Positions 1-14,052 of a stretch of DNA of 14,052 nt are shown here, one piece after another; the first letter of the stretch is position 1; every line of letters starts with the position of its first letter. The position numbers were made by a program, and so were the translations under genes. The stretch is from positions 181 through 14,232 of the forward strand of contig PMBP01000275.1 of NCBI GenBank assembly GCA_003152975.1, given 5' to 3'. Source of the DNA: Phycisphaerales bacterium. Its GTDB lineage: Bacteria > Planctomycetota > Phycisphaerae > Sedimentisphaerales > Anaerohalosphaeraceae. The notes under the pieces were generated by a model. The model had not been told where the DNA came from, did not search any database, and was given only the letters and a program-made list of their open reading frames with translations.

Positions 1-1634
1 TCGTCGAAGAAGATGCCGTTGTTGGGCGCCCCGCCGAAGGCGGTGGGGGTGCGGTGGGCGTCGTGGAGGAGGTTGCCGCGCAGGACCGTGCCGGGCTGGC
101 GGCCCAGGGTGTAGATGCAGCCGCCGTCGGCCAGGACCCGCATGACATCGTGGATGTGGTTGAACTCGACGATGTTGCCGCGCTGGCTGGTGGGCGTGGG
201 GTCCCAGCGGAAGCCCACGGACACGCCCGTGTAAGGCATGTGATGGACGAGGTTGTGGGCGATGCGGGTGTCCTGCGTGAAGGCCGAGAAGACGCCGACG
301 GCGCCGTAGCTGACCTGGCCGCAGTCGCTCAGGACGCAGTTGGTCACCGAGTTGCCGACGGGGACCTGCGCCGGGTCGGGCCAGTCGGCGTCGAGGGTCT
401 GCTCGCCGAGGATTGACTTGTCGCGGTGACCGATGTGGACGCCGTTTGCGCCGATGTCGGAGATCGTGCAACCGACGACGGCGTTGTTGCGGCACCCGGC
501 GCCGAGGGCGATGCCGCTTGCGTCGGTGTGGGCAACGGAGGACCACTCGATGCGGCAGTCGGCCGCGAAGGCGAGCTCAATAGCGGCGGGTTGGCAGAAG
601 GACGGGCCGTCGGCGCGGATACCGTGGTAGCCGGCCTGGATGCCGCGGTATCCGAAGGCGGGGATGTCCCAGCCGGCGTTTTCAAAAGCCAGCCCAAAGA
701 AGCGGATATTGCGGACTGGCTTTGACGGCTCGCCGCGGACTTGCACGAGGGTCTGTAACACCGGCGCGATGAATGCGTGGTCGTTGGGATTTTCGCCGGG
801 CTGGGCCATGTAATGGACCGTCTGTGCGTCGCGGTCGAGGAACCACTCGCCGGGCTGGTCGAGAAACGCGCGGGAGTGTTCGAGGAAGCAGGCCATCCCC
901 ACGCGGGCCGAGCATGCGTCGTGGCCGAGCCAGGACATCTGGGTAGCGGCAGTGATCGTCCGGCCGGCGACCTTGTCGATGCGGGCGCGGGACAGCGACC
1001 AGTTCTGCAGGACGACCAGTTCGGTCTGTTCGACCTTGGTTGCAGCGGGGATGTCGGCATCGAGGGTCAATGTGCGGAACTCGCCCTCGACCTGGGTCAG
1101 GTGCAGCATGGCATCGCCGTTGGGGTGCCGCGCGCGGGTCAGGCGCACACCGTCGCGGGTGAGCTGGCGGAACCACCACGGGCCTGCCGGGGAGGCAGGC
1201 AGCTTGGCCGACCAGAGGTTACCGTCGCCCTTGGTCCAGTTCGCGATCCGCCGGCCGCTGCTGATGACAACGGCGCCGGGGGCTGCGTCGGGCGATTCGG
1301 CGGAGGTGTAGGTGATCGAAAACTGCTCGGTGCCGGATTGATCGGGACTGATCAGCCACGGTCCGGCCAACTCATACCGGCCGGGGACGAAAACGACCCG
1401 CAGATCGGACTTGAGGCCCTGCTTGACCTCGGCGGCGACGGCCTTTTGGACCCGTTCAACCGTGGCGAATGGCTTTTCTTCGGTTCCGGGATTGGCATCA
1501 TTACCACCCGGAGCAATATATAAGGATTTGGCGGCCTGGGCGTGCGCGGGGCAGGGAACCATTCCCAGAGAGAAACTTCCGATAAAAAGGGCCGCGATGA
1601 GGGTGCAACGACGACAGGTTGGCATCCGTTTCAT
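1..1634 (-). CDS. Secreted right-handed parallel beta-helix protein, probable polysaccharide-active enzyme (3' end outside window)
   Basis: This is an open frame of 544 codons from ATG 1634 to the left edge with no stop, so the C-terminus is missing. GGAGG at 1642-1646 sits 7 nt before the ATG and fixes the start. Residues 1-33 form a Sec-type signal (basic MKRMPTCRR, hydrophobic core, cleavage near AHA/QA). Next comes the segment YIAPGGNDANPGTEEKPFAT at about 39-58, the usual opening of secreted beta-helix (DUF1565/pectate-lyase-like) proteins. A region with ITYTSAE and VVISSGRRIANW follows, then repeating beta-helix coils rich in Asn and His (NAVVGCTISDIGANGVHIG, NIVEFNHIHDV, DGGCIYTLG, VLRGNLLHDA). 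Such folds occur in polysaccharide lyases and in GH141/GH110-like hydrolases. The layout resembles GH141-like proteins, but the family and substrate are not settled. It is transcribed divergently from the 1835-7084 unit, which suggests shared regulation and perhaps release of the glycoside that unit processes. Confidence 0.85.
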   Translation of the reverse strand, partial: MKRMPTCRRCTLIAALFIGSFSLGMVPCPAHAQAAKSLYIAPGGNDANPGTEEKPFATVERVQKAVAAEVKQGLKSDLRVVFVPGRYELAGPWLISPDQSGTEQFSITYTSAESPDAAPGAVVISSGRRIANWTKGDGNLWSAKLPASPAGPWWFRQLTRDGVRLTRARHPNGDAMLHLTQVEGEFRTLTLDADIPAATKVEQTELVVLQNWSLSRARIDKVAGRTITAATQMSWLGHDACSARVGMACFLEHSRAFLDQPGEWFLDRDAQTVHYMAQPGENPNDHAFIAPVLQTLVQVRGEPSKPVRNIRFFGLAFENAGWDIPAFGYRGIQAGYHGIRADGPSFCQPAAIELAFAADCRIEWSSVAHTDASGIALGAGCRNNAVVGCTISDIGANGVHIGHRDKSILGEQTLDADWPDPAQVPVGNSVTNCVLSDCGQVSYGAVGVFSAFTQDTRIAHNLVHHMPYTGVSVGFRWDPTPTSQRGNIVEFNHIHDVMRVLADGGCIYTLGRQPGTVLRGNLLHDAHRTPTAFGGAPNNGIFFD

Positions 1635-1676
1635 GGTCTAACCTCCATTGAAATAGGGTTTTCGACGATTGAGCGG

Positions 1677-1705
1677 ATTCTAACCTGTGCCGCGGGCAGC
1701 GTCAA
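1677..1705 (-). promoter_or_regulatory. Sigma70-type promoter for the beta-helix gene
   Basis: On the minus strand, -35 TTGACG (1705-1700) and -10 TAGAAT (1682-1677) are separated by exactly 17 nt. Each hexamer matches consensus at five of six positions. Transcription would start near 1670, giving a leader of about 35 nt that contains the GGAGG ribosome site. The call rests on sequence match and position only. Confidence 0.7.
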
Positions 1706-1755
1706 TCCGGCACAAGAGTTTAAGATGGGGCGAGTGGGGAACCTGGATATAGTTG

Positions 1756-1785
1756 TTGACGATGATTCGGCCGGGATGGTACAAT
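1756..1785 (+). promoter_or_regulatory. Sigma70-type promoter for the 1835-7084 operon
   Basis: On the plus strand, -35 TTGACG (1756-1761) and -10 TACAAT (1780-1785) are separated by 18 nt. Each hexamer matches consensus at five of six positions. The start would be near 1792, about 43 nt before ATG 1835. It shares its -35 hexamer with the divergent minus-strand promoter. The two -35 elements are 50 bp apart (1706-1755), enough room for one regulator between them. Confidence 0.7.
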
Positions 1786-1834
1786 TCCGCCTCGAATATC
1801 CGGGGGGATAACCTGAAAACCGAAAGGTACGGCC

Positions 1835-2752
1835 ATGGATCGAAGGGCGTTTTTGGCGAGCGGACTGGCGGTTGGCGCGGCGATGGGGGCGGGGAGTGCC
1901 TTTGCCCAGGAGGCGGCCAAGCCGAACCGGGCGAAATTCCGGTTGCGATATGCGCCGAACATGAACGCGTTCAAGGGTCACGCCGGGGATAATACCGTCG
2001 ATCAGCTCAAGTTCCTGGCCGACGAGGGGTTCACGGCCGCGTTTGATCTGGGAATCGGCGGGCGGCCGGCCGACCAGCAGGACGCGATCATCGCCGAGAT
2101 GGACAAGCAGGGGATGCTGCTGGGGCCGATCGGCGTGCCGGGCGGGCTGGGTATCAAGTCGATGGTCGAGACCGACAAGGACATCCGTGAGACCCTCAAG
2201 ACCAAGATGAAGGGCGCTGTCGAGGCGGCCAAGCGCATCCGGGCCAAGTGGCTGCTGGTGGTGCCGGGCAATTACAACCAGGGCGTGGAGTGGGACTACC
2301 AGACGGCCAATGTCATCGAGAACCTCCGGGCTTGTTGCGAGGTCCTCGAGCCGTCGGGCGTAGTGATGGTGCTCGAGCCGCTGAACTGGTACACCAATCA
2401 TCCGGGGCTGTTCCTGACGAAAATTCCGCAGGCCTACTTAATCTGCCGGGCCGTCAACAGCCCGTCGTGCAAGATCATCAACGATCTCTATCACCAGCAG
2501 ATCACCGAAGGCAACCTGATCCCCAACCTCGACCGGGCCTGGAGCGAGATCGGCTCGTTCCATGTGGGCGACAATCCCGGCCGCAATGAGCCGGGCACCG
2601 GCGAGATCAACTACAAGAATGTCTTTCGGCATATCTTCAAGAAGGGCTACCAGGGCGCGCTGTGCTGCGAGCACGGCTTCAGCAAGCCGGGCAAGGAAGG
2701 CGAACGGGCGATGATCGAGGCGTACCGGGCGTGCGATAATTTTGAGGCATAA
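1835..2752 (+). CDS. Tat-exported hydroxypyruvate-isomerase-like sugar isomerase/epimerase (TIM barrel, PF01261)
   Basis: The protein has 305 residues. The N-terminus MDRRAFLASGLAVGAAMG is a twin-arginine signal ending near AFA/QE at 24-25, so the mature enzyme should act outside the cytoplasm. The rest is an AP-endonuclease-2-type TIM barrel. By eye the four expected divalent-metal ligands are Glu181 (LEPLN), Asp217 (INDLYHQQ), His243 (FHVGDNPGR) and Glu279 (CCEHG). The stretch GRNEPGTGEINY at 249-260 is a hallmark of the hydroxypyruvate isomerase (Hyi) branch. True Hyi is cytoplasmic, so the export signal argues for another substrate, plausibly a keto-sugar or glycoside made by the oxidoreductases downstream. 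A weak AAAGG lies about 7 nt before the ATG. It is the first gene of a five-gene unit, and the next start follows within 70 nt. Confidence 0.88.
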   Translation: MDRRAFLASGLAVGAAMGAGSAFAQEAAKPNRAKFRLRYAPNMNAFKGHAGDNTVDQLKFLADEGFTAAFDLGIGGRPADQQDAIIAEMDKQGMLLGPIGVPGGLGIKSMVETDKDIRETLKTKMKGAVEAAKRIRAKWLLVVPGNYNQGVEWDYQTANVIENLRACCEVLEPSGVVMVLEPLNWYTNHPGLFLTKIPQAYLICRAVNSPSCKIINDLYHQQITEGNLIPNLDRAWSEIGSFHVGDNPGRNEPGTGEINYKNVFRHIFKKGYQGALCCEHGFSKPGKEGERAMIEAYRACDNFEA

Positions 2753-2818
2753 TCAGGCAGGTCGGCGCCGGGCCGATCGTCTAATAAGGATGGCCATTTG
2801 AGAATGGAGCGGAGAACG

Positions 2819-3454
2819 ATGACGCGAAACGGTCTGTGGATGCTGTCGGTTGTGGTGGTGATTGCGGTGATGACGGCCGGTTGCCAGAGCCAGAAGACCT
2901 TTCTGTATAACGGCAAGGACCTCACGGGCCTCAAGCCCTATCCGGCCGACGCGGGCCATTGGTCGGCCAAGGGCGAAATCCTCTATAGTACCGGCAAGCC
3001 CAACGGCTACATCCGCACCGAGACGGTCTATCAGGACTTCAAACTGCATGTCGAGTGGCGCTGGCCGGCAGAGCCGACCAATAGCGGCGTCTTTCTGTTC
3101 CTCAACGGGGAGGACACGACCTTTCCGCGGTGCATCGAGGCCCAGCTTCAGCACACCAACGCCGGCGACTTTGTGATCATGAACCATTCGGGGGCGACGG
3201 TCAAGGGCGTTCGGTACGAGGATGCCGCCAAGCAGTTCATCGGCGTCAAGAAATTCCAGGCCAGCACCGAAAAGCCGGCCGGGGAGTGGAACACCTACGA
3301 CATCGTCTGCAAGGGCGACACGATCCAGTTGTTCGTCAACAACACCCTGCAGAACGAGGCCACCAAGACCAGCGAAAAATCCGGCTTTATCGGTCTGCAG
3401 AGCGAAGGCGGGCCCATCGAGTTCCGGAATGTGTATCTTGAACCGTTGAAATAA
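2819..3454 (+). CDS. DUF1080 (PF06439, 3-keto-disaccharide hydrolase family) lipoprotein
   Basis: From ATG 2819 the protein has 211 residues. Two upstream in-frame starts exist, TTG 2798 (7 nt after AAGGA) and ATG 2804. I chose 2819 because it follows GGAG and gives a compact signal peptide. MTRNGLWMLSVVVVIAVMTAGC ends in a lipobox-like TAGC, although Thr at -3 is not typical. The cysteine would be lipidated and anchor the protein in a membrane. The remainder is one concanavalin-like beta-sandwich of the DUF1080 family: FLYNGKDLTGLKP, HWSAKGEILYS, FKLHVEWRWP, NSGVFLF, CIEAQLQ, GEWNTYDIVC, IGLQSEGGPIEFRNV. Pfam names this family 3-keto-disaccharide hydrolase. Members often neighbour Gfo/Idh/MocA oxidoreductases and TIM-barrel isomerases, as here. 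The substrate is unknown, and a purely binding role cannot be excluded. Confidence 0.87.
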   Translation: MTRNGLWMLSVVVVIAVMTAGCQSQKTFLYNGKDLTGLKPYPADAGHWSAKGEILYSTGKPNGYIRTETVYQDFKLHVEWRWPAEPTNSGVFLFLNGEDTTFPRCIEAQLQHTNAGDFVIMNHSGATVKGVRYEDAAKQFIGVKKFQASTEKPAGEWNTYDIVCKGDTIQLFVNNTLQNEATKTSEKSGFIGLQSEGGPIEFRNVYLEPLK

Positions 3455-3501
3455 ATATCCGGTGAAAAACGATTATCCTGGAACGGGATTGGATCAATAC
3501 G

Positions 3502-3508
3502 AAAGGGG
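3502..3508 (+). promoter_or_regulatory. Ribosome binding site favouring the GTG start of oxidoreductase 1
   Basis: AAAGGGG lies 6 nt before GTG 3515 but 12 nt before the in-frame ATG 3521. The spacing favours GTG as the start. The two choices differ by two residues and do not affect the Tat motif. Confidence 0.5.
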
Positions 3509-3514
3509 ATTGGC

Positions 3515-4783
3515 GTGAAAATGACGGATGTGACGCGGCGTGATTTCATGAAGGCCGGCGTTGTGACGGCGGCGGCGATGTCGATGGGGCGCGGCGTGTA
3601 TGCGGCCGGGACGGAAAAGGTGAAGGTCGGGTTGATCGGCTGCGGCGGGCGCGGCAGCGGCGCGGCGGCCGATTGCCTGGAAGCGGATCCGGCGGTGGAG
3701 ATCGTCGCGATGGGCGACCTATTCAAGGATCGGCTCGACGGATCGCTCAACGGCCTCAAGACCAAGTACGCAGATCGCATCAAGGCCAACACCGATACCA
3801 GCTTTGTCGGCTTTGACGCCTACAAGCAAGTCATCGGCAGCGGCATCGATATGATCATCGAGGCCTGTCCGCCTCATTTCCGGGCCCCGCACCTCAAAGC
3901 GGCGATCGAGGCCGGTAAGCATGTCTTCATGGAAAAACCCGGCGGCGTCGATCCGGCGCAGATCCGCTCGGTCATCGCAACATCGGAGCAGGCGGCGCAG
4001 AAAAAATTGGCGATTGTCGTCGGCACGCAGCGGCGTCACCAGTTCAACTATGTCGATGTCGTCAAGCGGCTGCAGGAGGGTGCCATCGGTGACATTCGCG
4101 CCGCCCAGTGCTATTGGAACGGTGGCGACATGCTGGGCTACTGGAAGTGGTGGGACCAGGAAAAAATGTCCGAGATGGAGTGGCAATGCCGGAGCTGGCC
4201 ATGGTTTGTGTGGACCAGCGGCGATCATATCGTCGAGCAGCATGTTCACAACCTCGATGTCGTCAACTGGGTCCTCGGCAGCCATCCGGTTTCGGCGATG
4301 GGGATGGGCGGCCGGGCCGTTCGCAAGCTCGGTAACATTTGGGACCACTTCGCCGTCGAGTACCAGTACCCCAACAATGTCCGCGTGCTGAGCATGGCTC
4401 GGCAGATCAACGGGTGCAGCGATCGCGTCTCCGAGCATTTTGTCGGGACGACGGGCACGGCTTATACCGATGGCGGCGGCGTGGGACGCATCGAGGGACA
4501 AAAACCCTACGAGTACAAAGGCGAGAACCCCAATCCGTATGTCCAGGAGCACAAGGACCTCATCCAGAGCATCCGCGATGGCAAGCCCCTCAACGAGGGC
4601 AAGCGTCTGGCCGAGAGCACGATGACCGCGATCCTGGGCCGCATGAGCGCCTACACCGGTCGCGAGATCAAGTGGGACTGGGCGATGAATGCCTCGAAGC
4701 TGGACTTGGCCCCGGCCAAATACGAGTGGGGTTCGATGCCGGTCGATCCGGTGGCGGTGCCGGGAGAGACCAAGTTGGTGTGA
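3515..4783 (+). CDS. Tat-exported Gfo/Idh/MocA family NAD(P)-dependent oxidoreductase 1
   Basis: The protein has 422 residues from GTG. TRRDFMKAG at 7-15 with a hydrophobic stretch and VYAAG at 28-32 is a twin-arginine signal; such enzymes are typically exported folded with their nucleotide. The Rossmann fold starts at VKVGLIGCGGRGSGA (36-50). EKPGG carries Lys141, the family's usual catalytic lysine. GDHIVEQHVHNLD at 236-248 is the active-site helix. Aligned by eye with canonical members (motif D-x3-H), Glu241 stands where Asp is usual, followed by His245 and Asp248. Residues 200-233 are unusually rich in Trp and Tyr (WNGGDMLGYWKWW, SWPWFVW) and may form an aromatic sugar-binding wall. The likely reaction is hydride transfer to or from a sugar hydroxyl, but which carbon cannot be read from sequence. 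It lies 60 bp after the DUF1080 gene and is paralogous to 5801-7084. Confidence 0.9.
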   Translation: MKMTDVTRRDFMKAGVVTAAAMSMGRGVYAAGTEKVKVGLIGCGGRGSGAAADCLEADPAVEIVAMGDLFKDRLDGSLNGLKTKYADRIKANTDTSFVGFDAYKQVIGSGIDMIIEACPPHFRAPHLKAAIEAGKHVFMEKPGGVDPAQIRSVIATSEQAAQKKLAIVVGTQRRHQFNYVDVVKRLQEGAIGDIRAAQCYWNGGDMLGYWKWWDQEKMSEMEWQCRSWPWFVWTSGDHIVEQHVHNLDVVNWVLGSHPVSAMGMGGRAVRKLGNIWDHFAVEYQYPNNVRVLSMARQINGCSDRVSEHFVGTTGTAYTDGGGVGRIEGQKPYEYKGENPNPYVQEHKDLIQSIRDGKPLNEGKRLAESTMTAILGRMSAYTGREIKWDWAMNASKLDLAPAKYEWGSMPVDPVAVPGETKLV

Positions 4784-4820
4784 GCCGTGCAGCGGTTGTT
4801 GTGTGGTTCGTGATAATGGT

Positions 4821-4843
4821 TCAATTGTATATTGAATATTGAA
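4821..4843 (+). repeat. AT-rich spacer with inverted and tandem repeats
   Basis: Within the 81-bp gap between oxidoreductase 1 and the next gene, TCAAT (4821-4825) and ATTGA (4831-4835) form a short inverted repeat around TGTAT. TATTGAA then occurs twice in tandem (4830-4836, 4837-4843). The segment is sharply AT-rich in GC-rich surroundings. It could be an internal promoter or operator, but I found no convincing -35/-10 pair. Confidence 0.4.
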
Positions 4844-4864
4844 TAATGTATTCGGGAGCATGAC

Positions 4865-5752
4865 ATGAATCGAAGAGACCTATTCAAATCAGCGGCTGCG
4901 GTGTCTGTGGCCAGCGCATTGGGTTCGACCGTACCGGCTCGGGCCCAGAAGCAGGAAAAGAAACCGGTGGTACTGAAGATCAGCAGCCAGGATGGACGGA
5001 TTCCCGGCAAGAGTCTTCGCGAGAAAGTCGAGAAGCTGGAAAAGTGGGGCGCCGCGGGTTTGGAATTGGGAGGGGGCGGGCTTTCCGGCCGGATCAAGGA
5101 GGCCCAGGAGGCCATCAAGGGCACCAGCATCAAGATCAGCGCGATCTGCGCGGGCTACTCGGGTGCACCCATTTCGCAGGATCCTGAGGAACGAAAGAAA
5201 TGTGTGGCTTCCATCAAGGAGCTTCTCAAGTCCGTTGGCGAACTGGAATCAACCGGCCTGATCGTAGTGCCGGCGTTCAATAACCAGACGACGCTGGACA
5301 ACAAAGAGGCCCGCAAGATTTTTGTGGAGATGATGCCAGAGCTGGGCGAGGCGGCCGTGCAGTGCAAGACGCGGATTTTGCTGGAGCCGCTCAACCGCGG
5401 CGAGGCGTTTTTCCTGCGGCAACTGGCCGACGGCGCGTCGCTTTGCCGCGACATCAATCACCCCGGCGTGTGCATGATGGGCGATTTCTATCACATGTGC
5501 ATAGAAGAAACCAGCGACTGCGGAGCGTTTTTATCCGCGGGTAAATACCTGCATCATGTGCATTTGGCCAGTAAAGCCCGCAATCTCCCCGGCCAGGATG
5601 AGCGGAGTTTTGTCGATGGTTTCCGGGGCCTCAAGATGATCGGCTATCAGGACTACTGCTCGCTGGAATGCGGGTGCAAAGGCAATCCCGAAGTAGAAGT
5701 TCCCAAGTCGTTCGAGTTCCTGCGCAAGCAGTGGGACGAAGCGACGATCTGA
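4865..5752 (+). CDS. Tat-exported sugar phosphate isomerase/epimerase-like TIM barrel protein
   Basis: The protein has 295 residues, and GGGAG ends 6 nt before the ATG. MNRRDLFKSAAAVSVASALG is a twin-arginine signal with cleavage near ARA/QK (26-28). The mature part is a PF01261-type barrel: VVLKISSQDGRIPGKS, LEKWGAAGLELGGGG, IKISAICAGYSG, TGLIVVPAF. Putative metal ligands are Glu174 (LLEPLNR), Asp207 (MGDFYHM), His233 (HHVHLAS) and Glu268 (SLECG). It is only distantly similar to the first barrel at 1835-2752 and lacks that protein's GRNEPGTGEINY segment, so the two probably handle different intermediates or stereochemistry. It sits between the two oxidoreductases. A similar-looking TIM barrel is the lyase-type partner of the oxidoreductase in bacterial C-glycoside cleavage (DgpB/C), which is a reasonable alternative to a simple isomerase. 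Confidence 0.86.
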   Translation: MNRRDLFKSAAAVSVASALGSTVPARAQKQEKKPVVLKISSQDGRIPGKSLREKVEKLEKWGAAGLELGGGGLSGRIKEAQEAIKGTSIKISAICAGYSGAPISQDPEERKKCVASIKELLKSVGELESTGLIVVPAFNNQTTLDNKEARKIFVEMMPELGEAAVQCKTRILLEPLNRGEAFFLRQLADGASLCRDINHPGVCMMGDFYHMCIEETSDCGAFLSAGKYLHHVHLASKARNLPGQDERSFVDGFRGLKMIGYQDYCSLECGCKGNPEVEVPKSFEFLRKQWDEATI

Positions 5753-5788
5753 TGCGAACATAACGGTAAAGACAGACAGATTTTTTTC

Positions 5789-5794
5789 AAGGAG
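5789..5794 (+). promoter_or_regulatory. Ribosome binding site selecting ATG 5801
   Basis: AAGGAG lies 6 nt before ATG 5801 but only 3 nt before the adjacent in-frame TTG 5798. The ATG is therefore the better start. Confidence 0.65.
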
Positions 5795-5800: not shown

Positions 5801-7084
5801 ATGGAAACAAACGGCAAGATTCTGAATGTGTCGCGGCGGGACTTCCTGAAGGTTTCGGCGGTCTCGATGGCGGCGCTGTCGATCAGCCCGGCGGGCCTGT
5901 ATGCAGCCGGCGACGACGAAATCAAGGTGGCGCTGATCGGTTGCGGCGGCCGGGGAACGGGCGCTCTGCAACAATTCATCGAGGCCGGCACCAAGATGTT
6001 GAACCTGAAGGTCAAGGTTGTCGCCCTGACAGATCCCCAGAAGGATCGTCTGGAAAAGACAGCCAAGGAACACAATGTCCCGACGGAAATGTGTTTCTCG
6101 ACATTCGACGGTTATAAGAAGGTCGTCGCCAGCGATGCCCAGTATGTGATTCTGGGTACCAGCCCCAACTTCCGCCCCGTGCACCTGGAAGCGGCGATCG
6201 AGGCGGGCAAGAATGTGTTCATGGAAAAGCCCGTGTGTGTCGATCCGCAGGGTTGCCGTCGCGTCATCGCCGCCGGCGAGAAGGCCAAGGAAAAGAAACT
6301 GGCGATCGTCGCGGGGACTCAGCGCCGGCACGAAAAGAGCTACCGCGAGACGGCGGCCGCCATCGAGCAGGGGGCCATCGGGCAGATCATGGGCGGCCGG
6401 GTGTGGTGGTGCGGCGGGGCCCTTTGGAAGACCGAGCGGAAACCGGGCGAGAGTGACGCCATGTATATGGTCCGCAACTGGGTCAGCTTTGCCGAGATGA
6501 GCGGCGACCACATCGTCGAACAGCATGTCCATAATCTGGATGTGGCCAACTGGTTCATCGGCCGAACGCCCAAACAAGCCCTGGGCTTTGGCGGACGGGC
6601 TCGCCGCAAGACCGGCGACCAGTTCGACTTCTTCAGCGTCGACCTCGATTACGGCGATGACCTGACGATCCACAGCATGTGTCGGCAGATCAACAACACC
6701 CACGGTCCGGTTTCGGAGGCCTTCGTCGGCACCAATGGAACAACCTCGGGCGGAAGCTTCAAGATGGCCAACAAGAAGAACCTCAACATGCCGAAGTTTC
6801 CGGACGGCGATCCGTATGTGATCGAGCACTTCGACCTGATCACCAGCGTCCGCGAGGGCAAGCCCCTCAACGAGGCCAAGACCGTGGCCGAATCGACGCT
6901 GACGGCGATCATGGGCCGGATCTCGGCCTACACGGGCCAGTATGTTCGCTGGTCGGACCTGACAACCAACAAGGATTCGCAATTCTACAACCTCCGGCTT
7001 TCCCCCTCGGCCGAAGACTTCGAAAAGGGCGATGTCAAGGCCCCGGCCGACGAAGTCGCCCCGATTCCCGGAAAAGATGCTTGA
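5801..7084 (+). CDS. Tat-exported Gfo/Idh/MocA family NAD(P)-dependent oxidoreductase 2
   Basis: The protein has 427 residues from ATG 5801. SRRDFLKVSAVSMAALSISP (11-30) is a near-consensus twin-arginine signal, ending around LYAAG. IKVALIGCGGRGTGA (41-55) is the nucleotide-binding loop. MEKPVCVDP carries Lys143. GDHIVEQHVHNLD at 235-247 gives Glu240, His244 and Asp247 at the active-site positions, again with Glu in the usual Asp place. It shares blocks with the 3515-4783 paralogue (AAIEAGK, the EKP lysine motif, GTQRRH, GKPLNE, AYTG). The substrate-side segment 200-233 differs, having WWCGGALWKTERKPGES in place of the Trp-rich stretch. Specificity has therefore probably diverged, perhaps one oxidation step and one reduction step. 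It is the last gene of the unit, 48 bp after the TIM barrel and 59 bp before a strong terminator. Confidence 0.9.
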   Translation: METNGKILNVSRRDFLKVSAVSMAALSISPAGLYAAGDDEIKVALIGCGGRGTGALQQFIEAGTKMLNLKVKVVALTDPQKDRLEKTAKEHNVPTEMCFSTFDGYKKVVASDAQYVILGTSPNFRPVHLEAAIEAGKNVFMEKPVCVDPQGCRRVIAAGEKAKEKKLAIVAGTQRRHEKSYRETAAAIEQGAIGQIMGGRVWWCGGALWKTERKPGESDAMYMVRNWVSFAEMSGDHIVEQHVHNLDVANWFIGRTPKQALGFGGRARRKTGDQFDFFSVDLDYGDDLTIHSMCRQINNTHGPVSEAFVGTNGTTSGGSFKMANKKNLNMPKFPDGDPYVIEHFDLITSVREGKPLNEAKTVAESTLTAIMGRISAYTGQYVRWSDLTTNKDSQFYNLRLSPSAEDFEKGDVKAPADEVAPIPGKDA

Positions 7085-7143
7085 TTGGGTAGATCCCATT
7101 GTTGGATGCTCTCAGTAATTTGAATTTCGGAATTGTCCTCCAG

Positions 7144-7173
7144 CCCCGTCCGGATGCTCCGGGCGGGGTTTTT
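7144..7173 (+). terminator. Rho-independent terminator closing the 1835-7084 operon
   Basis: CCCCGTCCGG (7144-7153) pairs with CCGGGCGGGG (7159-7168), giving a 10-bp stem with one G-U pair and a 5-nt loop ATGCT. TTTTT follows immediately (7169-7173). It lies 59 bp after the stop of oxidoreductase 2 and separates that unit from cimA. Confidence 0.88.
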
Positions 7174-7175
7174 CG

Positions 7176-7204
7176 TTGCCTTGCCGAAAGAGGATTGGTA
7201 CAGT
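7176..7204 (+). promoter_or_regulatory. Candidate promoter for cimA
   Basis: TTGCCT (7176-7181) and TACAGT (7199-7204) are 17 nt apart, each matching sigma70 consensus at four of six positions. The pair lies just after the terminator and about 37 nt before ATG 7242. The match is modest. A promoter is expected here because the terminator isolates cimA, but this exact pair is tentative. Confidence 0.3.
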
Positions 7205-7241
7205 GGTGTTTTCTTAATAACGCAAGGAAACAGGTGTAACA

Positions 7242-8816
7242 ATGGACAGGGTAACGATTTACGACACAACGCTTCGGGACGGCATGCAGGCCGAGGGGAT
7301 CAGTTTTTCCCTGGCCGACAAGCTGCTGATCGCCCATCGTCTGGACGATTTCGGGATCGACTACATCGAGGGCGGCTACGCCGTCGCCAACCCGAAGGAA
7401 ATGGAGTTTTTCCAGCAGATCCGCCAGCGGAAGCTGCGACACGCGCGGATCGCCGCGTTCGGCAACACCCGCCGGGCCGACCTGACCGTCGAAGCCGATC
7501 CATCCCTGGCGGCCATCCTGCAGTGCCAGGCCCCGGCCGCAACGCTGGTCGGCAAGACCTGGGATATGCATGTCACCGAGGTGCTGCGGTGTTCGCTCGA
7601 CGGCAATGTCCTGCTGTGCGCCGAGTCGGTGGCCTATCTGAAGAAAAAAGGCCTGGAGGTCATCTTCGACGCCGAGCATTTTTTCGACGGCTACAAGCGC
7701 AACCCGGCATATTCGCTGAAGGTCATCGCCGCCGCCGCCGAGGCTGGCGTCGATGTCATCGCCTTGTGCGAGACCAACGGCGGCTGCCTGCCGCAGGAGG
7801 TCTATGAGATTACCACCGCCGTGCGCAAGGCCCTGCCCGGCGCGGCGATTGGGATTCACTGCCACAACGATTCCGACTGCGCCGTGGCCAATTCGCTGGC
7901 GGCCGTCTGCGCCGGCGCCCGGCAGGTGCAGGGCACCATCAACGGCATCGGCGAGCGAACGGGCAACGCCAACCTGTGCTCGATCATCGCCAACCTCGAG
8001 CTGAAGGCCGGCTACGCGACTGTCGGCCCCGAGAAGCTGCCGCATCTGACGGAGTTGTCGCGGTTCGTGTTCGAGGTGGCCAACATATCCCCGGTGATGA
8101 ACCTGCCGTTCGTCGGGGCCAGCGCCTTCGCGCACAAGGCCGGCCTGCATGTCAACGCACTCCGCAAGAACAAGTCAACCTACGAGCATATCGATCCCTC
8201 GACCGTCGGCAACGAGCGGCGGTTCCTGATCTCCGAGCTGTCCGGCCAGTCCAATGTCTTGGCCAAGCTCGAGCGCCACAAGCTACATGAGGACAAGGCC
8301 CTGGCCAAGAAGATTTTGGCGATGGTGCAGGAATTGGAGAACGAGGGTTACCAGTTCGAGGCCGCCGAGGGCAGCTTCGACCTGCTGGTCAAGAAGGCCC
8401 TGGGGACCTATCGTTCGGGCTTCGTGCTGGAAAAGTACCATGTCAATGTCGAACGCAACGGCGGCGGGCGGATCGTGACCGAAGCCACCGTCAAGTTGAC
8501 CGTGGACGGCAAGACCCAGCATGTCGTCAGCGAGGGCGACGGCCCGGTTAACGCCCTCGACAGCGCGCTGCGAAAATCGCTGGAGGGTTTCTACCCGAAC
8601 TTGTGCGACATGCACCTGATCGATTACAAGGTCCGCGTGGTCAATGCCCGCGAGGGCACCGCCGCCCGCGTCCGCGTCATCATCGAATCCCGCGACAAAG
8701 ACGACCTGTGGGGTACCGTCGGCGTGTCGGAAAATGTCATCGACGCCAGTTGGAAGGCCCTCGTCGACAGCGTCGAATACAAGCTGCTCAAGGACGCCGA
8801 CGCCAAAAAATCCTGA
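7242..8816 (+). CDS. cimA: Citramalate synthase (2-isopropylmalate synthase family, TIGR00977-like)
   Basis: The protein has 524 residues, usual for this family. It condenses pyruvate and acetyl-CoA to (R)-citramalate, the first step of the threonine-independent route to 2-oxobutanoate and isoleucine, in the cytoplasm. The HMGL-like TIM barrel begins with YDTTLRDGMQAEG (7-19), which holds the catalytic Arg and metal-binding Asp. Asp143 and Glu145 (IFDAEHFFDGYK) are typical of this branch. HCHND at 206-210 supplies the metal-binding histidines, and GTINGIGERTGNANL at 231-245 is the family signature. A LeuA-type regulatory domain follows at about 375-515 (GSFDLLVKKALGTYRSGF, then VRVIIES near 477), implying feedback control, classically by isoleucine. 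AGGTG lies 5 nt before the ATG. This housekeeping biosynthetic gene sits between carbohydrate genes and is followed after 36 bp by a secreted protein gene. A closely related homocitrate or isopropylmalate synthase is much less likely. Confidence 0.92.
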   Translation: MDRVTIYDTTLRDGMQAEGISFSLADKLLIAHRLDDFGIDYIEGGYAVANPKEMEFFQQIRQRKLRHARIAAFGNTRRADLTVEADPSLAAILQCQAPAATLVGKTWDMHVTEVLRCSLDGNVLLCAESVAYLKKKGLEVIFDAEHFFDGYKRNPAYSLKVIAAAAEAGVDVIALCETNGGCLPQEVYEITTAVRKALPGAAIGIHCHNDSDCAVANSLAAVCAGARQVQGTINGIGERTGNANLCSIIANLELKAGYATVGPEKLPHLTELSRFVFEVANISPVMNLPFVGASAFAHKAGLHVNALRKNKSTYEHIDPSTVGNERRFLISELSGQSNVLAKLERHKLHEDKALAKKILAMVQELENEGYQFEAAEGSFDLLVKKALGTYRSGFVLEKYHVNVERNGGGRIVTEATVKLTVDGKTQHVVSEGDGPVNALDSALRKSLEGFYPNLCDMHLIDYKVRVVNAREGTAARVRVIIESRDKDDLWGTVGVSENVIDASWKALVDSVEYKLLKDADAKKS

Positions 8817-8852
8817 GTCGGCGGCACGCATTCCATTTCTTCGGAGGTTCCC

Positions 8853-10979
8853 ATGGCAAGACGATGGCTCTTGATCATCCTCGGATATTGCGCGATGTGC
8901 GATTGGCTCTATGCGCAGCAAGCAACGCCGTCCTTTCGCGACTGCAAGACGATCTTCCAGACTAACACCGGTTTTGATCCGCGACTGGCGATCGCCGTTG
9001 ACGGCGTAATCGTCCATCGGCACGCCGCATCATTCGCCGGTGAATTGGACTCCTGGCGAAAGCAGGGCTTTGCCGTCGGGCGGATGTTCTTTGCCGACTC
9101 CGACGCGGGTAACGCCTACTGGACCGGCAAATGGGACGGTACCGAGCACCCGCAGGATGTCGAGCGGGACCAGGCCGGCAATGTCATCCAATGCGCCGGC
9201 GTGCGCCCATACATGCTGCCCACCGACGGCTGGATCCGCTACCTCGAGCAGATGGCCTCGCAATCCATCGTGTTCGGCGCTGGCGCGATCCTGCCCGAAG
9301 AGCCGCTGGCGCATGTCATCTCCGGCTACGAGAAAAGCTTCAAGACCCTGTGGTTAAAACGCTACAACCGGCCGTGGCAGGGCCAGCACGAATCTGCCGA
9401 GGCGCGATACCTGACCGCGGAACTGAAGAGTGAACTGTACCTCCAATTGGAAAGACGACTGTTGGAGTTGACAAAAAAAAGCGCCGCCTCCGACGGTCGG
9501 CCCCGCGCGTTCATCCTGCCGATCCACTCGATCTACAGCAATATCGCCGCCCAGATTGTCGCGCCGCTGGGGACCTCGACGGACCTGCCCGGCGTTGACG
9601 GCTACATCGGCCAGATCTGGACCGGCCCGGTCAACTGGGCCCTGGGACACTACGACTCGCCGAGCAAGAGCTTCTTCGGCAGCGCGTTTGTCCTGTACGA
9701 TTTCTTCACCCAACTGGCCGTCGGCAGCGATCGAAAAATGTGGCTGCTGATCGATCCGGTGGAGGACAACCCCGACCACACCTGGGCCCAGTTCCAGCAG
9801 TGGTACCAGCACGGCGTCGCCGCGATGCTGATGATGAAGGATACCGACCGCTACGAGGTCATGCCCTGGCCGGACCGGATCTTTCTGCCCGGCTACGGCA
9901 TCGGTGGCAAGACGCCCGCGCCCGAAAATTACCGCGTCGTGATTTTGTCGGTCACGCAGGTCCTACAGGAAGTGCCGCTGGGGGGCCAATGGGAGACGGG
10001 AGGCGAAGCGATCGGCGACGGCGTCGGCGTGGCGATGGCCGACACACTGATGGGCCAGCCGCATCCCGGCCCGTGGCTGCAGGGGGCCTATGGGATGCTC
10101 CTGCCGCTGGTCGAGCGGGGGATCCCCGTTTCGTCGGTGGTGCTCGAACGGGCCAAAGAGGCCGAGTACCTCAATCGCTTCAAGGTTATCGTGCTGTGCT
10201 ACGAAGACTTCAAGCCCGCCGAGCCGGCGATGAACGAGTCGATCGCGGCGTGGGTCAAGGCCGGCCGCTCGCTGATCGTCCTCGGCAAGGACGGCGACGA
10301 GCTGGACCGTTGCGCGAATTTTTGGTGGCACAAGCGGGGCTTTGCTTCGCCGCTGGCGCATCTGCTCTCGCTGCTGAATCCTGCAAACGAATCTTCGTGG
10401 GCTATCGGGTCCGGCCATGTGACTCGCAGCGAAGTTTCTCCGCGAATCTTCGGCACCGCCACTGCGGCTGAAAAAGAGTATCTGCCCCTGGTCGATGCGG
10501 CCTGGAAGCAGGCCACCAGCAAAACGCTGGCCCGGCCGGGCTCGATGGTTATGCGGCGAGGGCCGTTTGTCATCGCCCGTGCCGAGACAAAACCGGTCAA
10601 ACTGTCCGGCCGTCTGCTGGATATCTTCGATCCGTCGATGCGGATCGTCAGCGGTGTCGAGCTGGCCCCCGGCCATAGCGGCCTCTATCGCGATGTTCAG
10701 TCGGATCTTGCCGCCGGTACGCCCAAAGTCCTGCACGCAACCCATCGTCTGATGAGCCAATCAAGCGACAACGGTGTCTTGCGGTTCGTTGTTCGCGGCC
10801 CCGCCGAGACCCCGGCCGTAGTGCGGATTGTCTGGCCCAAAGACACGGCGCTGGAGATTTCCGCGACGGATCTCGATGGAAAATCAATCGCGGTTCAGCC
10901 GGAACGGGACAGCGAGACTGCCCTGCTGCGTTTCGCCAATCATCCCCAGGGTGTGATGGTATCCTGCGGCAAACAATAA
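8853..10979 (+). CDS. Secreted multidomain glycoside-hydrolase-like protein of unassigned family
   Basis: The protein has 708 residues, and GGAGG lies 5 nt before the ATG. MARRWLLIILGYCAMCDWLYAQQ is a Sec signal cleaved near YA/QQ (21-22). I do not recognise a named family. Residues 30-340 look like a TIM-barrel hydrolase. The strand-end segment GAGAILPEEPLAHVI at 142-156 has Glu149/Glu150 where clan-A enzymes carry an acid/base. It is followed by a helical stretch resembling the region after that glutamate in GH42-like proteins (FKTLWLKRYNRPWQ, ESAEARYLTAELK). Further barrel strands are suggested by RAFILPIHSIYSN and KMWLLIDPVEDNPDHTW. Residues 405-480 (LPLVERGIPVSSVVLER, FKVIVLCYEDFKP, AWVKAGRSLIVLGKDGD) look like the glutamine-amidotransferase-like domain found behind GH42-type barrels. 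A beta-rich domain closes the protein (560-705). Catalytic assignment is inference. The 36-bp gap suggests co-transcription with cimA. Confidence 0.8.
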   Translation: MARRWLLIILGYCAMCDWLYAQQATPSFRDCKTIFQTNTGFDPRLAIAVDGVIVHRHAASFAGELDSWRKQGFAVGRMFFADSDAGNAYWTGKWDGTEHPQDVERDQAGNVIQCAGVRPYMLPTDGWIRYLEQMASQSIVFGAGAILPEEPLAHVISGYEKSFKTLWLKRYNRPWQGQHESAEARYLTAELKSELYLQLERRLLELTKKSAASDGRPRAFILPIHSIYSNIAAQIVAPLGTSTDLPGVDGYIGQIWTGPVNWALGHYDSPSKSFFGSAFVLYDFFTQLAVGSDRKMWLLIDPVEDNPDHTWAQFQQWYQHGVAAMLMMKDTDRYEVMPWPDRIFLPGYGIGGKTPAPENYRVVILSVTQVLQEVPLGGQWETGGEAIGDGVGVAMADTLMGQPHPGPWLQGAYGMLLPLVERGIPVSSVVLERAKEAEYLNRFKVIVLCYEDFKPAEPAMNESIAAWVKAGRSLIVLGKDGDELDRCANFWWHKRGFASPLAHLLSLLNPANESSWAIGSGHVTRSEVSPRIFGTATAAEKEYLPLVDAAWKQATSKTLARPGSMVMRRGPFVIARAETKPVKLSGRLLDIFDPSMRIVSGVELAPGHSGLYRDVQSDLAAGTPKVLHATHRLMSQSSDNGVLRFVVRGPAETPAVVRIVWPKDTALEISATDLDGKSIAVQPERDSETALLRFANHPQGVMVSCGKQ

Positions 10980-11091
10980 CCTGGAGGGCCCTGTCCGCTG
11001 AGGCGGATCGGGGCCGAGCGAGTATTCCAGTGCCGGGTGGCAGCCACCGAGTCCCGATTTTTTTCGGGATGAGGTGGATGTCAAATGTTCT
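10980..11091. repeat. Convergent spacer with three small hairpins
   Basis: Three inverted repeats lie between the convergent stops: TCCGC/GCGGA (10994-11007, loop TGAG), GGTGG/CCACC (11036-11048, loop CAG) and TCCCGA/TCGGGA (11052-11069, loop of six T). None is followed by a T-run on either strand, although 11058-11064 is seven T inside the third structure. The third could act as an imperfect bidirectional terminator. No coding signal was seen. Confidence 0.45.
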
Positions 11092-11523
11092 TCAATCCTC
11101 ATCGACCTTCATTCGTCGGCTCTGCTTGATCTTACTGTGTTGCCGCTTATTCTCCAGCCGCCGCTGCTTTTGGCCGTAGGGGACTTGCGTTTTTTTGCGG
11201 GGTTTGGGGGGTGTAAGGGCCTGTCGCAACAGTTCAGCCAGCCGCTCGGTCGCGGCCTTGCGGTTGGCCAATTGCGTGCGATGCTCCTGACAAGTGATCT
11301 GCAACCGGCCGAAGCGGTCCAGCCGCCGGCCGAGCATCCGTCGGATCCGGTCTTTGTGGAACACGCTTAATGTCGCACAGCTCTCGAAATCAAACGACAC
11401 CGTCGCGCGGGTGCTCACCTTGTTTACATTCTGCCCGCCTGGCGCGCTGCTGCGAGAAAACGACACTGTCAGGTCATCGGCTCGAATGACGATCCCATCT
11501 CGGATTTCAAATTCTTCGGCCAT
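11092..11523 (-). CDS. arfB: ArfB-type peptidyl-tRNA hydrolase (ribosome rescue factor, YaeJ/ICT1 family)
   Basis: The protein has 143 residues, close to the roughly 140 of E. coli ArfB. It hydrolyses peptidyl-tRNA on ribosomes stalled at the end of truncated mRNAs. The release-factor catalytic motif GGQ is at 29-31 in SRSSAPGGQNVNKVSTRATVSF; Ala27 replaces the Gly usual in SSGPGGQ. A compact domain-3-like fold follows (HKDRIRRMLGRR, LQITCQEHRTQLANRKAA). The C-terminal tail 107-139 is strongly basic (KPRKKTQVPYGQKQRRLENK, then KIKQSRR), matching the tail that occupies the empty mRNA channel. No RF1/RF2 codon-recognition domain is present. The start lies only 4 nt after the stop of the upstream malectin gene. 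The nearest SD-like sequence is the purine-rich end of that gene, so translation may be coupled. Being next to a secreted glycan enzyme is unusual. Confidence 0.93.
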   Translation of the reverse strand: MAEEFEIRDGIVIRADDLTVSFSRSSAPGGQNVNKVSTRATVSFDFESCATLSVFHKDRIRRMLGRRLDRFGRLQITCQEHRTQLANRKAATERLAELLRQALTPPKPRKKTQVPYGQKQRRLENKRQHSKIKQSRRMKVDED

Positions 11524-11527
11524 CGTA

Positions 11528-14052
11528 TTACTTGGCCCTCACCACCACCGTCTGATTCAGTTTTGGCGCGGTGGCCGGGAAAAACAGGTGTTTACTATCG
11601 GCCGTCCCCGCGTCGATGTAGTATTCCAGATCAGCCCCGGTCATTTCCGCGGGTAGCGTGATCTGATAGACGCCGCGGGCCAGATGCGTCATCGGCTTTT
11701 TGACATACTCGCCCTTACCCATCGGCCGCACGAAGATCGCGATCTCCGTGGGCTTGGTACCCTGAATTACGGCCCGGATCTTCAGCGCTTCGCCGGTGTT
11801 AATCATCGAGCGAACCGTCGGCACAAACAACCGCGCATCTCCCGTGTAACCTTTGGCGAGCCTGGCATCGTCGGGAAGCGGAGTGCCCAGGAGCTTTTCC
11901 AATTCCTGCCCCGGCCGAGTCAGCACCATCGGGATCACATGCTGTTGCCAGTTGGTGACATTGCCCAGCCCGCCCTGCGTGGTCACCGCCTGCAGCAGCC
12001 AGCGATGAACCTCCGCCACATCGGCGACAAGCTGTTTGCGGAGCGGCAGTGCCAGTTCCGCGGCGGCCTTCTTTCTCGCGGCCTCGTCAGGTGCGGCCTT
12101 GGCCTTTTCGATCGCCGCGTTGTATAGCGCCCAGTCGCAGTTGACTTTGGCAATTGCCCGGAGATAACGGAACTGGTTGAGCCAATAATTGAAGCGTTCG
12201 AGGTTCCCCTCGCCGCGGATCTTCGGCACAAGTGCCGCCATCTGATCGACAAATGCATACTCCTTGCTGACCTGTTCCCACGGCCGGCCGTCGGGAACGA
12301 TGCCGCCGGGACCATCCACCCAGGTCGAAGGCCGCGGAAGGCAACCGGCGCGATAGGGCTTCTGGTCCGGCGTGTATCCGCCGTCGAGCCGCACAAAGAC
12401 CGCCGCAAGCTCGACCGCCGCCTCCGGGCCGAACTGCGACTTCGCCCAGTCGGCATAGAAATCATCCACCGGCAGATCGCGCGGCCGCGTGTCGGTAGCG
12501 ACCATCGACTGCATGTCGGCCTCGTAGTCCTTCCACGCTGGGCCGCCGCAGTTGATCTTGCGGACGAAGGCCTTTGCATCGGCGGCGTTGCCATCGATGG
12601 CGATCCCGGCGATTGACGGGAACTCGACCTGCTTGACAAACCCAATCACCAGCAACCCGTCGGTGACCGCGACATCCTTAAATATGCGATCCATCGCCTT
12701 GTCCTTGCCGACGGTCGCGAAGATGTCCAGCGACTCGATGACCGTCTTGCCCTGCAATTTCACGCCGAAGACCCGCTTGCCCTTTTCGGTATAGTGCGGC
12801 TCGCAGAATTTCAGCGAGACGGTGTAAGTGCCGTTGGGAACCCTAAACTTGTAGGCCTCGACATCGTAGCGGACCGTCTGGTAGATCGTCGGCTCCTGCG
12901 TATCGGTGATCGTGTTGTTGGGGAACTGTGCGACATTGCCGCCGACGCATCCCTCAGCCGGCAGCGCCGGTTCGATCTTGCCAGTCTTGCCGGGCGCGGG
13001 GTTCCAGCCTGATTGATCCCACGCCGCCATCGCCAGGGCCGAGACATTCGGCCCCAGGATCCGTGTCCGCCAGTGAATACCCATCAGGCCCGTGCACCCG
13101 TAGGCCAGCGCGTCGGCCGCATCGCGCCGCATCCGTCCGGCCCAGAGCTGCGGAGCGATCAGTGCCGGATCATCCTCCATCCACGGGATTGCCCAGATCG
13201 GCCGGCCCTTGATCTTCGCAAAGCCCGGCTCGACGAACGAAAAGCCCACATTACAGTTGATGCAGCTCAGCGGCATCGACTTGGGTAGAAAGTTATCGAA
13301 CAGCGCACGGTCCGTCGGTGGCCCAAGCACCCACCCGCAGGTCGCCAGAACAAACGGCGGCTTGACCTTTTCCGCGGCGTTGATCGCGGCCTTCAGGTCC
13401 GCGATCGTCGCATCGACCTGCTCCTGTTTGGTCCCCTCCCATGTCCAGCCCTCCGGCGTCCAGAACCAGTAGTAGTCCAGCGGCTGGACCTGCTTGATCC
13501 GCGCGAACATCCCCTCATAGACCTCCTGTACCACGGCCGGATCGGCGGGGTTTTTCCCGGCGGCCTTGAGCCGCTCTTTAACGGGAGTCGGGATCGTCAG
13601 CGGCGTCTCGGTACCGATGCAGGTCTGGATGCCCAGCGACTTGGCATACGAGAAGATGTCGTTAAGAAACACGCCCATGTCGTTAAAGAGCTTATCCTGC
13701 GTGGCCTTCGGGGCCGTCGTCCAGGGATTGACGCCGGTCATGTAGTCAGCGCCGTAATCATCGGTTTCGAAAATCTCGTCTGCTCCGTTGATGTAGGCCC
13801 CGGTGTTGGTCTTCTCGCAGCCCCAGGCCCCGGTGATGTTGTTGGTGGTAAAGTGCCGCGCGGGATACGACGCCTTCACCGTGCCGTCGGGATTGATCTC
13901 CTCTTTCGGGCCGATCCACACCAGCGGCTCGGGTCCCACGCCGCCTTCCGGGTAGGTGTGTAGTCCGAAGAAATTCATCCGCAGCTTGGGCAATTGGCCG
14001 AGCACGGCCTTGTAGCCCTCCGCGTCCCACCAGTCCGGCCCCTCGGGAAAAT
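11528..14052 (-). CDS. Very large glycoside-hydrolase-like TIM-barrel protein with internal malectin domain (5' end outside window)
   Basis: The frame is open to the right edge, with about 840 codons visible. Upstream of GTG 14005 it reads FPEGPDWWDAEGYKA and joins smoothly, so that GTG is an internal valine and the true start lies outside. Positions below count from that codon. Residues 1-340 look like a TIM-barrel hydrolase: LRMNFFGLHTYPE at the start resembles alpha-glucuronidase-like enzymes, with possible active-site acids in GTETP (133) and WFWTPEGW (185). Residues 353-475 (about 12,581-12,949) are a malectin-type carbohydrate-binding domain: TIYQTVRYDVEAYKFRVPNG, YTVSLKFCEPHYTEKGKRVF, GLLVIGF, IAGIAIDG. 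A helical region with LPVDDFYADWAKSQFGPEAA follows at 500-700, then a beta-sandwich to the TAA stop (VRSMINTGEALKIRAV, LEYYIDAG). Export is likely but the signal is not visible. Family and substrate are unassigned. It is probably co-transcribed with arfB. Confidence 0.82.
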   Translation of the reverse strand, partial: FPEGPDWWDAEGYKAVLGQLPKLRMNFFGLHTYPEGGVGPEPLVWIGPKEEINPDGTVKASYPARHFTTNNITGAWGCEKTNTGAYINGADEIFETDDYGADYMTGVNPWTTAPKATQDKLFNDMGVFLNDIFSYAKSLGIQTCIGTETPLTIPTPVKERLKAAGKNPADPAVVQEVYEGMFARIKQVQPLDYYWFWTPEGWTWEGTKQEQVDATIADLKAAINAAEKVKPPFVLATCGWVLGPPTDRALFDNFLPKSMPLSCINCNVGFSFVEPGFAKIKGRPIWAIPWMEDDPALIAPQLWAGRMRRDAADALAYGCTGLMGIHWRTRILGPNVSALAMAAWDQSGWNPAPGKTGKIEPALPAEGCVGGNVAQFPNNTITDTQEPTIYQTVRYDVEAYKFRVPNGTYTVSLKFCEPHYTEKGKRVFGVKLQGKTVIESLDIFATVGKDKAMDRIFKDVAVTDGLLVIGFVKQVEFPSIAGIAIDGNAADAKAFVRKINCGGPAWKDYEADMQSMVATDTRPRDLPVDDFYADWAKSQFGPEAAVELAAVFVRLDGGYTPDQKPYRAGCLPRPSTWVDGPGGIVPDGRPWEQVSKEYAFVDQMAALVPKIRGEGNLERFNYWLNQFRYLRAIAKVNCDWALYNAAIEKAKAAPDEAARKKAAAELALPLRKQLVADVAEVHRWLLQAVTTQGGLGNVTNWQQHVIPMVLTRPGQELEKLLGTPLPDDARLAKGYTGDARLFVPTVRSMINTGEALKIRAVIQGTKPTEIAIFVRPMGKGEYVKKPMTHLARGVYQITLPAEMTGADLEYYIDAGTADSKHLFFPATAPKLNQTVVVRAK

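Follow-up and report, generated by a model that had tools for sequence, protein, structure and literature searches.

Selection against the tetranucleotide ACGT in an uncultured genus of Planctomycetota

A window without ACGT

The window analysed here is a stretch of 14,052 nucleotides from a metagenome-assembled genome (MAG) of a Phycisphaerales bacterium (G000; 3.24 Mb in 540 contigs, 68% complete), and the subject is a short DNA word, the palindrome ACGT, that does not occur in it. The genes with Pfam matches are ordinary and comprise xylose isomerase-like barrels, Gfo/Idh/MocA oxidoreductases, a 3-keto-disaccharide hydrolase domain, a cimA-like gene, a protein with an RF-1 domain, and a malectin protein. 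Of nine window proteins submitted to Pfam, eight were matched and one was not. The cimA-like gene (7242..8816, plus strand; HMGL-like PF00682, HCS_D2 PF22617, and LeuA_dimer PF08502) served both for the codon observation described below and for fetching relatives.

An exact search of positions 1..14052, which covers both strands since the word is a palindrome, returned no ACGT. In 200 dinucleotide-preserving shuffles, 42.3 copies were expected (standard deviation 6.0), and a maximal-order Markov model predicted 29.4 (z-score −6.3, the lowest among all 256 tetramers). A sequence-only reading of the window had reported this absence by eye, against an expectation of some tens of sites, and both statements hold. 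It had also counted about 200 ACG trinucleotides, none of them before T. There are 210, followed by A in 67 cases, by C in 57, by G in 86, and never by T. The other palindromes it had named are present as well (GATC 129, TCGA 121, CATG 48, GTAC 25, GCGC 87). It missed that CTAG and TTAG likewise have a count of zero (CTAG 0 vs. 8.8 expected); CTAG is described as underrepresented in most of the genomes tested in PMC4687349.

The codons of the cimA-like gene reflect the missing word. All nine junctions of Asn, Asp, or His with Val read NAT-GTC on the plus strand, at exactly the residues given by the sequence-only reading: His110 (7569..7574), Asn122 (7605..7610), Asp171 (7752..7757), His303 (8148..8153), Asn338 (8253..8258), His400 together with Asn402 (8439..8450), His427 (8520..8525), and Asn498 (8733..8738). 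The codons are CAT at the His, AAT at the Asn, and GAT at the Asp positions. Asn is encoded by AAC 18 times and by AAT six times in this gene, and four of the six AAT codons precede Val. In the window as a whole, ATGT is in excess, with 70 copies versus 44 expected.

The depletion extends far beyond the window. A count over the whole of G000 yielded 65 copies of GACGTC, compared with 1139 of the reversed control CTGCAG. ACGT itself was counted on sampled contigs of G000 and of a congener, G001, and amounted to 24 versus approximately 470 expected (a depletion of about 20-fold) and 37 versus approximately 556 expected, respectively. These contigs were picked by round numbers, with C10 of G000 included and C111 left out, and with C202 of G001 included because it had been taken for its match; contigs consisting entirely of N (5 of 29 for G000, 5 of 24 for G001) were discarded. 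The Markov measure gave 25 versus 351 for G000 with C111 and C10, and 22 versus 379 for G001 without C202. Eleven of the 24 sites in G000 are located in a foreign-looking stretch, the last ~2 kb of one contig. In G001, C202, which we read as a Type I restriction–modification (R-M) island, accounts for 15 of the 37. Once these two stretches are removed, the residue is 3–6%, and single residual sites also occur elsewhere in the sampled DNA. All 16 flanking contexts of ACGT are low, with 0–7 sites each in 401 kb of G000 and G001 versus 19–147 in 370 kb of controls. An effect confined to the window or its surroundings, which near-expected counts elsewhere in the genome would have indicated, is rejected by the GACGTC count and by the sampled contigs.

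Some stretches assigned to G000 do carry the word. The proteins encoded in C380:1-5000, C69, and the end of C152 look foreign or chimeric by eye. The ACGT-bearing stretches L010:1-5000, L012:5200-7236, L006, and L008:3200-4011 lie within, or are attached to, contigs that otherwise have almost none of the word; these may be chimeric contigs, contaminants, or recently transferred DNA. The density of ACGT could help to clean the G000 bin.

Reading frame, selection, and mutation

The sequence-only reading had proposed that ATGT and ACAT, the apparent replacements of ACGT, are what deamination of 5-methylcytosine would leave behind. Under this explanation, methylation of ACGT by a C5 methyltransferase is followed by decay of the modified cytosine to thymine, with no selection on the word. 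We examined the loss separately for the three reading frames, using 263 genes called by codon usage (105,686 codons in 401 kb of native-looking G000 and G001 sequence) and synonymous shuffles as the expectation. The pooled genus set consisted of 48 loci. It left out C1, C24, C69, C152, C380, C10, and C111 of G000 and C202, C240, C482, and L051 of G001, which looked foreign, were small, held R-M islands, or corresponded to the window, and it included C2, C32, C88, and C366, which had first been fetched because they carry GACGTC. The 20 control loci were hand-picked from the 80 cimA loci described below, with guanine plus cytosine content and the observed/expected ratio (o/e) of ACGT on the high side; further loci that fitted the rule were left unused.

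With the hyphen marking the codon boundary, the genus has 6 ACGT versus 313 expected from the shuffles in the frame ACG-T, 16 versus 374 in NAC-GT, and 7 versus 82 in A-CGT. The corresponding values of the control loci were 210 versus 279, 620 versus 658, and 79 versus 77. Deamination at ACG-T should produce ACA-T. The share of ACA among Thr codons other than ACG is, however, 0.160 both before T (117/733) and elsewhere (498/3105; Fisher p 1), and conversion of all lost ACG-T into ACA would have given 375 ACA codons instead of the 117 seen. The lost codons are spread over ACC, ACT, and ACA without a bias for ACA, which disfavours deamination. In the frame A-CGT, deamination could remove the word solely by way of His or Cys. 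The word vanishes there while Arg holds its share (0.061 vs. 0.063), His is not raised (0.017 vs. 0.019), and Cys is 0.0134 versus 0.0127, which again argues against deamination. Fourfold codons ahead of CGT end in A in only 1 of 354 cases, compared with 10% elsewhere.

The excess of ATGT is large in the frame NAC-GT (730 vs. 372; 1.96-fold), where NAT is the sole synonymous escape, and amounts to 0.92-fold in the first frame and 1.34-fold in A-TGT (60 vs. 45; 1.14-fold in the control loci). Two ACGT-poor relatives introduced below, G034 and G067, behave alike, with no ACGT in any frame and an ACA share of 42/140 versus 213/837 (p 0.25). A search for C5 methyltransferases (PF00145), one of the checks that the sequence-only reading had called for, matched nothing in G000 (E ≤ 1; 68% complete) or G001 (1e-5; 93% complete). 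In favour of deamination stand the ATGT excess of the window, the slight rise of A-TGT, and a precedent in Helicobacter pylori, where an ACGT loss skewed to ATGT and ACAT has been reported (PMC10423294). On this balance, we regard deamination as a very improbable cause. The codon pattern is one of selection acting on the word itself rather than of biased mutation: ACGT has been almost wiped out from the sampled DNA of both genus genomes through synonymous choice, in all reading frames.

Helicobacter pylori is also a close parallel for the word itself (M.Hpy99XI, PMC10423294; HpyCH4IV site counts, PMC3849833): ACGT is strongly underrepresented, varies between lineages, and falls mostly in the frame NAC-GT. 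The account given in PMC10423294 credits the loss largely to deamination of 5-methylcytosine. In the genus studied here, in contrast, the redistribution of codons opposes that account, and no C5 methyltransferase was found by the PF00145 search.

Relatives and candidate R-M systems

The comparison of related genomes suggested by the sequence-only reading revealed an on/off pattern. Among 80 cimA loci taken from named genomes, the o/e of ACGT was below 0.05 in three and between 0.30 and 1.76 in the other 77. The three depleted loci are L051 (observed/expected 1/38.7), L059 (2/52.0), and L063 (0/68.8). L051, deposited as 'Phycisphaerae bacterium isolate AS27yjCOA_69', belongs to G001, one of whose contigs, when retrieved, matched at every base; L059 (isolate AUK119) likewise belongs to G031, and L063 ('Planctomycetales bacterium 4572_13') to G034. 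The avoidance is therefore specific to certain lineages, with normal ACGT density in related genera. When 118 genomes were ranked by GACGTC/CTGCAG, the lowest were G034 (3/307), G067 (3/177), G078 (11/462), and G001 (42/1098), with G000 in ninth place. Direct sampling of 15 genomes gave an ACGT o/e of 0.15 or less in seven (G000, G001, G031, G034, G067, G078, and G115), with counts of 0 versus 144 in G034, 0 versus 24 in G067, 9 versus 64 in G078, and 9 versus 94.5 in G031. A further genome, G036, had 0/63 in three stretches and 17 versus 85.9 over all six fetched, the three stretches outside the smaller count holding 3, 5, and 9 ACGT.

Two of the most depleted genomes, G034 and G067, encode an endonuclease-like open reading frame (ORF) of 262–272 amino acids, here called endonuclease-1, directly 5′ of a C5 methyltransferase (G034, L161:6113-6898 and 6898-8064; G067, L162, minus strand). 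In G078, endonuclease-1 lies at a contig end, and the C5 methyltransferase match is on another contig. The ORF matched no Pfam or NCBIfam family, nothing better than 0.04 in PADLOC, and nothing better than 0.19 in the PDB. We found 858 homologues, and among the best 120 of these some carry the name 'restriction endonuclease' in their source records. Across 76 sequences, E168 and Q170 never vary, and the conservation of D155 exceeds 90%, a pattern that may correspond to a D..ExQ nuclease site of the PD-(D/E)XK type. The AlphaFold model is predicted with confidence (predicted local distance difference test, pLDDT, 92).

Of the 161 genomes from the order that were searched, three (G034, G067, and G078) carry endonuclease-1; all are depleted in ACGT, and they are the three lowest of the 118 ranked genomes. 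G034 and G067 were examined because they were depleted, and G078 alone was found blind; the chance of 1 in 6786 that two further carriers would be the next lowest is accordingly too favourable. Three viral contigs with homologues of 47–66% identity have an ACGT o/e of 0.17, 0.04, and 0.09, ranking 3/135, 1/136, and 1/136. No homologues appeared in the plasmid and phage collections or in a phylum-wide set (0/392) that held no positive control. We infer from the depletion that this family, for which there is no curated model, has a predicted 4-bp specificity for ACGT. An ACGT system with an m5C methyltransferase is described for MaeII (A/CGT) of Methanococcus aeolicus in PMC10113651, and a C5 methyltransferase likewise stands beside endonuclease-1 in G034 and G067. 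Endonuclease-1 differs in having no Pfam or NCBIfam family and no sequence relative in the PDB.

The methyltransferase families searched in the genus of the window were PF00145, PF01555, and PF02384. PF01555 has a match in 114 of 118 genomes, including a CcrM-like copy of 331 amino acids on C187 of G000 (L163:4067-5059); as a selector against ACGT, this methyltransferase was set aside because matches also occur in genomes with normal ACGT. Such CcrM-like proteins of ~330 amino acids seem to be widespread in the order and may represent a conserved orphan methyltransferase. PF02384 led to two loci, both labelled by eye. The Type I HsdRMS island on C202 of G001, whose own ACGT is near-normal (15 vs. 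21), is an unlikely cause. A Type IIG/Eco57I-like methyltransferase fragment of G000 (C111:2153-3493, minus strand; L234) is likewise judged unlikely to be the cause of the ACGT loss; it may account for the avoidance of one asymmetric word.

Among the searched families, a cognate endonuclease and methyltransferase in the same genome were met only as a candidate cassette in G001, both genomes of the genus being incomplete MAGs. The cassette pairs an ORF bearing an HNH-like motif (L194:7259-7996) with a beta-class methyltransferase after it, and G001 alone of 161 genomes carries it. The methyltransferase is split over the end of C240 and the start of C482, which overlap by 141 bases. Both labels are readings by eye; Pfam gave no meaningful match for the HNH ORF, and PADLOC gave a weak one (PDC-M01B, 5.8e-4).

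This pair might be the ACGT system of the genus and kin of the Thermus cutter of ACGT/. No other complete two-gene cassette of Type II appearance turned up in G001 in the PF00145, PF01555, and PF02384 searches. Thermus is known as a producer of Tsp49I (ACGT/). In two Thermus plasmids that carry homologous HNH and methyltransferase pairs, ACGT ranks lowest among the 136 strand-merged tetramers (o/e 0.48 and 0.44), compared with 0.95, 1.00, and 1.24 in stretches of 40 kb from three further plasmids of Thermus. The two plasmids share many annotated genes and are hardly independent. The likeness to Tsp49I would lie in its specificity and in the ACGT-poor DNA around the Thermus pairs; that Tsp49I belongs to the HNH family is conjecture. 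The AT-rich composition of the cassette is no proof of recent arrival, as the G034 cassette is AT-rich too (0.41 vs. 0.53). On the other side, the cassette was not found in G000 (68% complete), and its region holds ACGT, with one site inside the cassette and two just upstream. An out-of-sample prediction failed as well: one further Planctomycetota genome (G334; 1/392) carries a broken version of the cassette, yet its ACGT o/e is 0.57, only rank 9, and the word in which it is poorest is TCGA (4 vs. 181). Searches of phages and viral contigs gave no HNH homologues. With this mixed support, the G001 cassette is a candidate that we put forward tentatively, and on balance it is rather doubtful that it is the ACGT system of the genus.

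Other words are avoided alongside ACGT, and they differ between lineages of the order. In the 401 kb of G000 and G001, members of GTMKAC are low (GTCGAC 13 vs. 161, GTATAC 3 vs. 29, GTAGAC 9 vs. 51), as are AGCCT/AGGCT (44 vs. 365), CTAG (15 vs. 172), and CAGCTG (8 vs. 90; controls 18 vs. 105). In the window, GTMKAC has 2 versus 12.6 and AGGCT 3 versus 14.6. GATC is nearly absent (o/e 0.01–0.05) at the cimA loci L064, L067, L085, L086, L087, L088, L098, L108, and others, and AGGCT is also nearly lacking at L086 (1 vs. 22), L088 (2 vs. 34), and L114 (0 vs. 26). The small genome G334 (L282-L298) avoids five palindromes, namely, besides TCGA, CTAG (6 vs. 122), GATC (29 vs. 361), AGCT (25 vs. 163), and GGCC (60 vs. 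307).

Restriction as the probable selective force

The avoidance of orthodox Type II sites is established; it is stronger the longer a system has resided, and traces of lost systems persist too (Rusinov et al., 2015; PMC4687349). We consider it likely that selection on ACGT was imposed by an orthodox Type II R-M system specific for this word, the selector being probably the restriction enzyme. In such a scheme, the cells would carry a system with the specificity of MaeII, HpyCH4IV, or Tsp49I; an ACGT that is occasionally left unmethylated would be costly, and lineages shedding their sites one by one would be favoured. Of the causes proposed by the sequence-only reading, past or present restriction of the MaeII/HpyCH4IV type is the best supported, by the on/off pattern among lineages, by the depletion of all endonuclease-1 carriers, and by the ACGT-poor DNA around the homologues; deamination is not supported, and the PF00145 search found no C5 methyltransferase in G000 or G001. 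The likeness to the cases of Rusinov et al. (2015) lies in a palindromic word depleted genome-wide, on or off among relatives, with a depletion that can be seen even where no system is found any more. Compared with those cases, the loss is nearly total here (o/e ~0.05 in the genus and zero in the sampled DNA of G034 and G067), the organisms are uncultured Planctomycetota, and a frame test has been applied.

A number of observations weigh against a restriction enzyme as the force. Profile searches for endonuclease-1 in G000, G001, G031, G036, and G115 found none, even though G001 is 93% complete, and the family is present in only three of the eight directly sampled ACGT-poor genomes (G036 counted). 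The PF00145 search left the genus without a C5 methyltransferase. Two of the findings on the HNH cassette, the failed prediction for G334 and the ACGT sites in and just before it, belong on this side, and the slight rise of A-TGT is a small point for deamination. As to the viral contigs, the first (L305) is poor in several CG-containing words (CCGG 0 vs. 10.4, ACGC 2 vs. 20.5; CpG o/e 0.73), and the other two are alike and Helicobacter-like by eye, which makes them weak as independent cases. ACGT is described as rare in Helicobacter (HpyCH4IV site counts, PMC3849833). Finally, GACGTC/CTGCAG is a crude proxy, with G046, G050, and G056 ranking fifth to seventh in spite of a direct ACGT o/e of 0.71, 0.74, and 0.82.

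A system lost in the ancestor of the genus, with the present absence as its slowly fading trace, was weighed against the divergence of the two species. Nine window genes, among them those for a xylose isomerase-like TIM barrel (1835..2752, plus strand; Pfam) and a malectin-domain protein (11528..14005, minus strand; Pfam), differ from their counterparts on L051 by a number of synonymous substitutions per synonymous site (dS) of 0.56–1.62 and at 593 of 1641 fourfold sites (36%). In a recovery simulation, synonymous codons were redrawn to the observed divergence without avoidance, a rough procedure in which codon usage served as the mutation target. Had avoidance ended at the species split, the window genes would contain 12.5 ACGT (minimum 5 in 200 runs) versus 0 observed, and the pooled genes 306 of 777 versus 29 observed. 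With 36% of fourfold sites changed, a loss before the split should have let ACGT refill to about one-third of normal, and the observed 0 and 29 therefore disfavour an early loss. Within this rough simulation, both species kept avoiding the word after they had diverged, until the present or very nearly. The ancestral-loss explanation would account for the missing cognate endonuclease in the genus, for a residual ACGT of 3–6% instead of zero, and for the partly refilled look of G031 (9 vs. 94.5), and traces of lost systems are documented in PMC4687349. It fits the simulation only as a very recent and independent loss in both lineages, and we consider it unlikely. An ACGT system is presumably present in the genus, or was so until very recently.

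Selection on ACGT for a different reason, such as a harmful binding site of a regulator, a transposase target, or DNA mechanics, would pass the frame test as any word-level selection does. It accords poorly with the patchy avoidance next to normal related genera, with the low counts in all 16 flanking contexts, and with the avoidance of GTMKAC, another restriction-type word, in the same genus, and it leaves aside that three depleted genomes carry one specific endonuclease family. We give this explanation little credence, only slightly more than deamination, and retain a Type II R-M system as the likely force.

Restriction-site avoidance as such is already known; the value here lies in this instance and in the codon-frame test. 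One aimed literature search returned, among the matches listed, no study of restriction-site underrepresentation in Planctomycetota. For the order, it is conceivable, though speculative, that unrelated ACGT-specific systems brought the word close to elimination on more than one occasion: in some genera a D..ExQ endonuclease paired with a C5 methyltransferase, and in the genus of the window an HNH endonuclease paired with a beta-class methyltransferase. In each case the word would have been lost via selection on synonymous codons; the deamination account for Helicobacter pylori may then need the same frame test. This test separates restriction-site selection from the deamination of 5-methylcytosine, two processes that are easily confounded for ACGT. 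The depletion itself is visible by eye and acts as a fossil and a sensor of restriction specificity for organisms beyond the reach of culture: it draws attention to an endonuclease family that lacks a curated model, and it marks foreign stretches inside a MAG.

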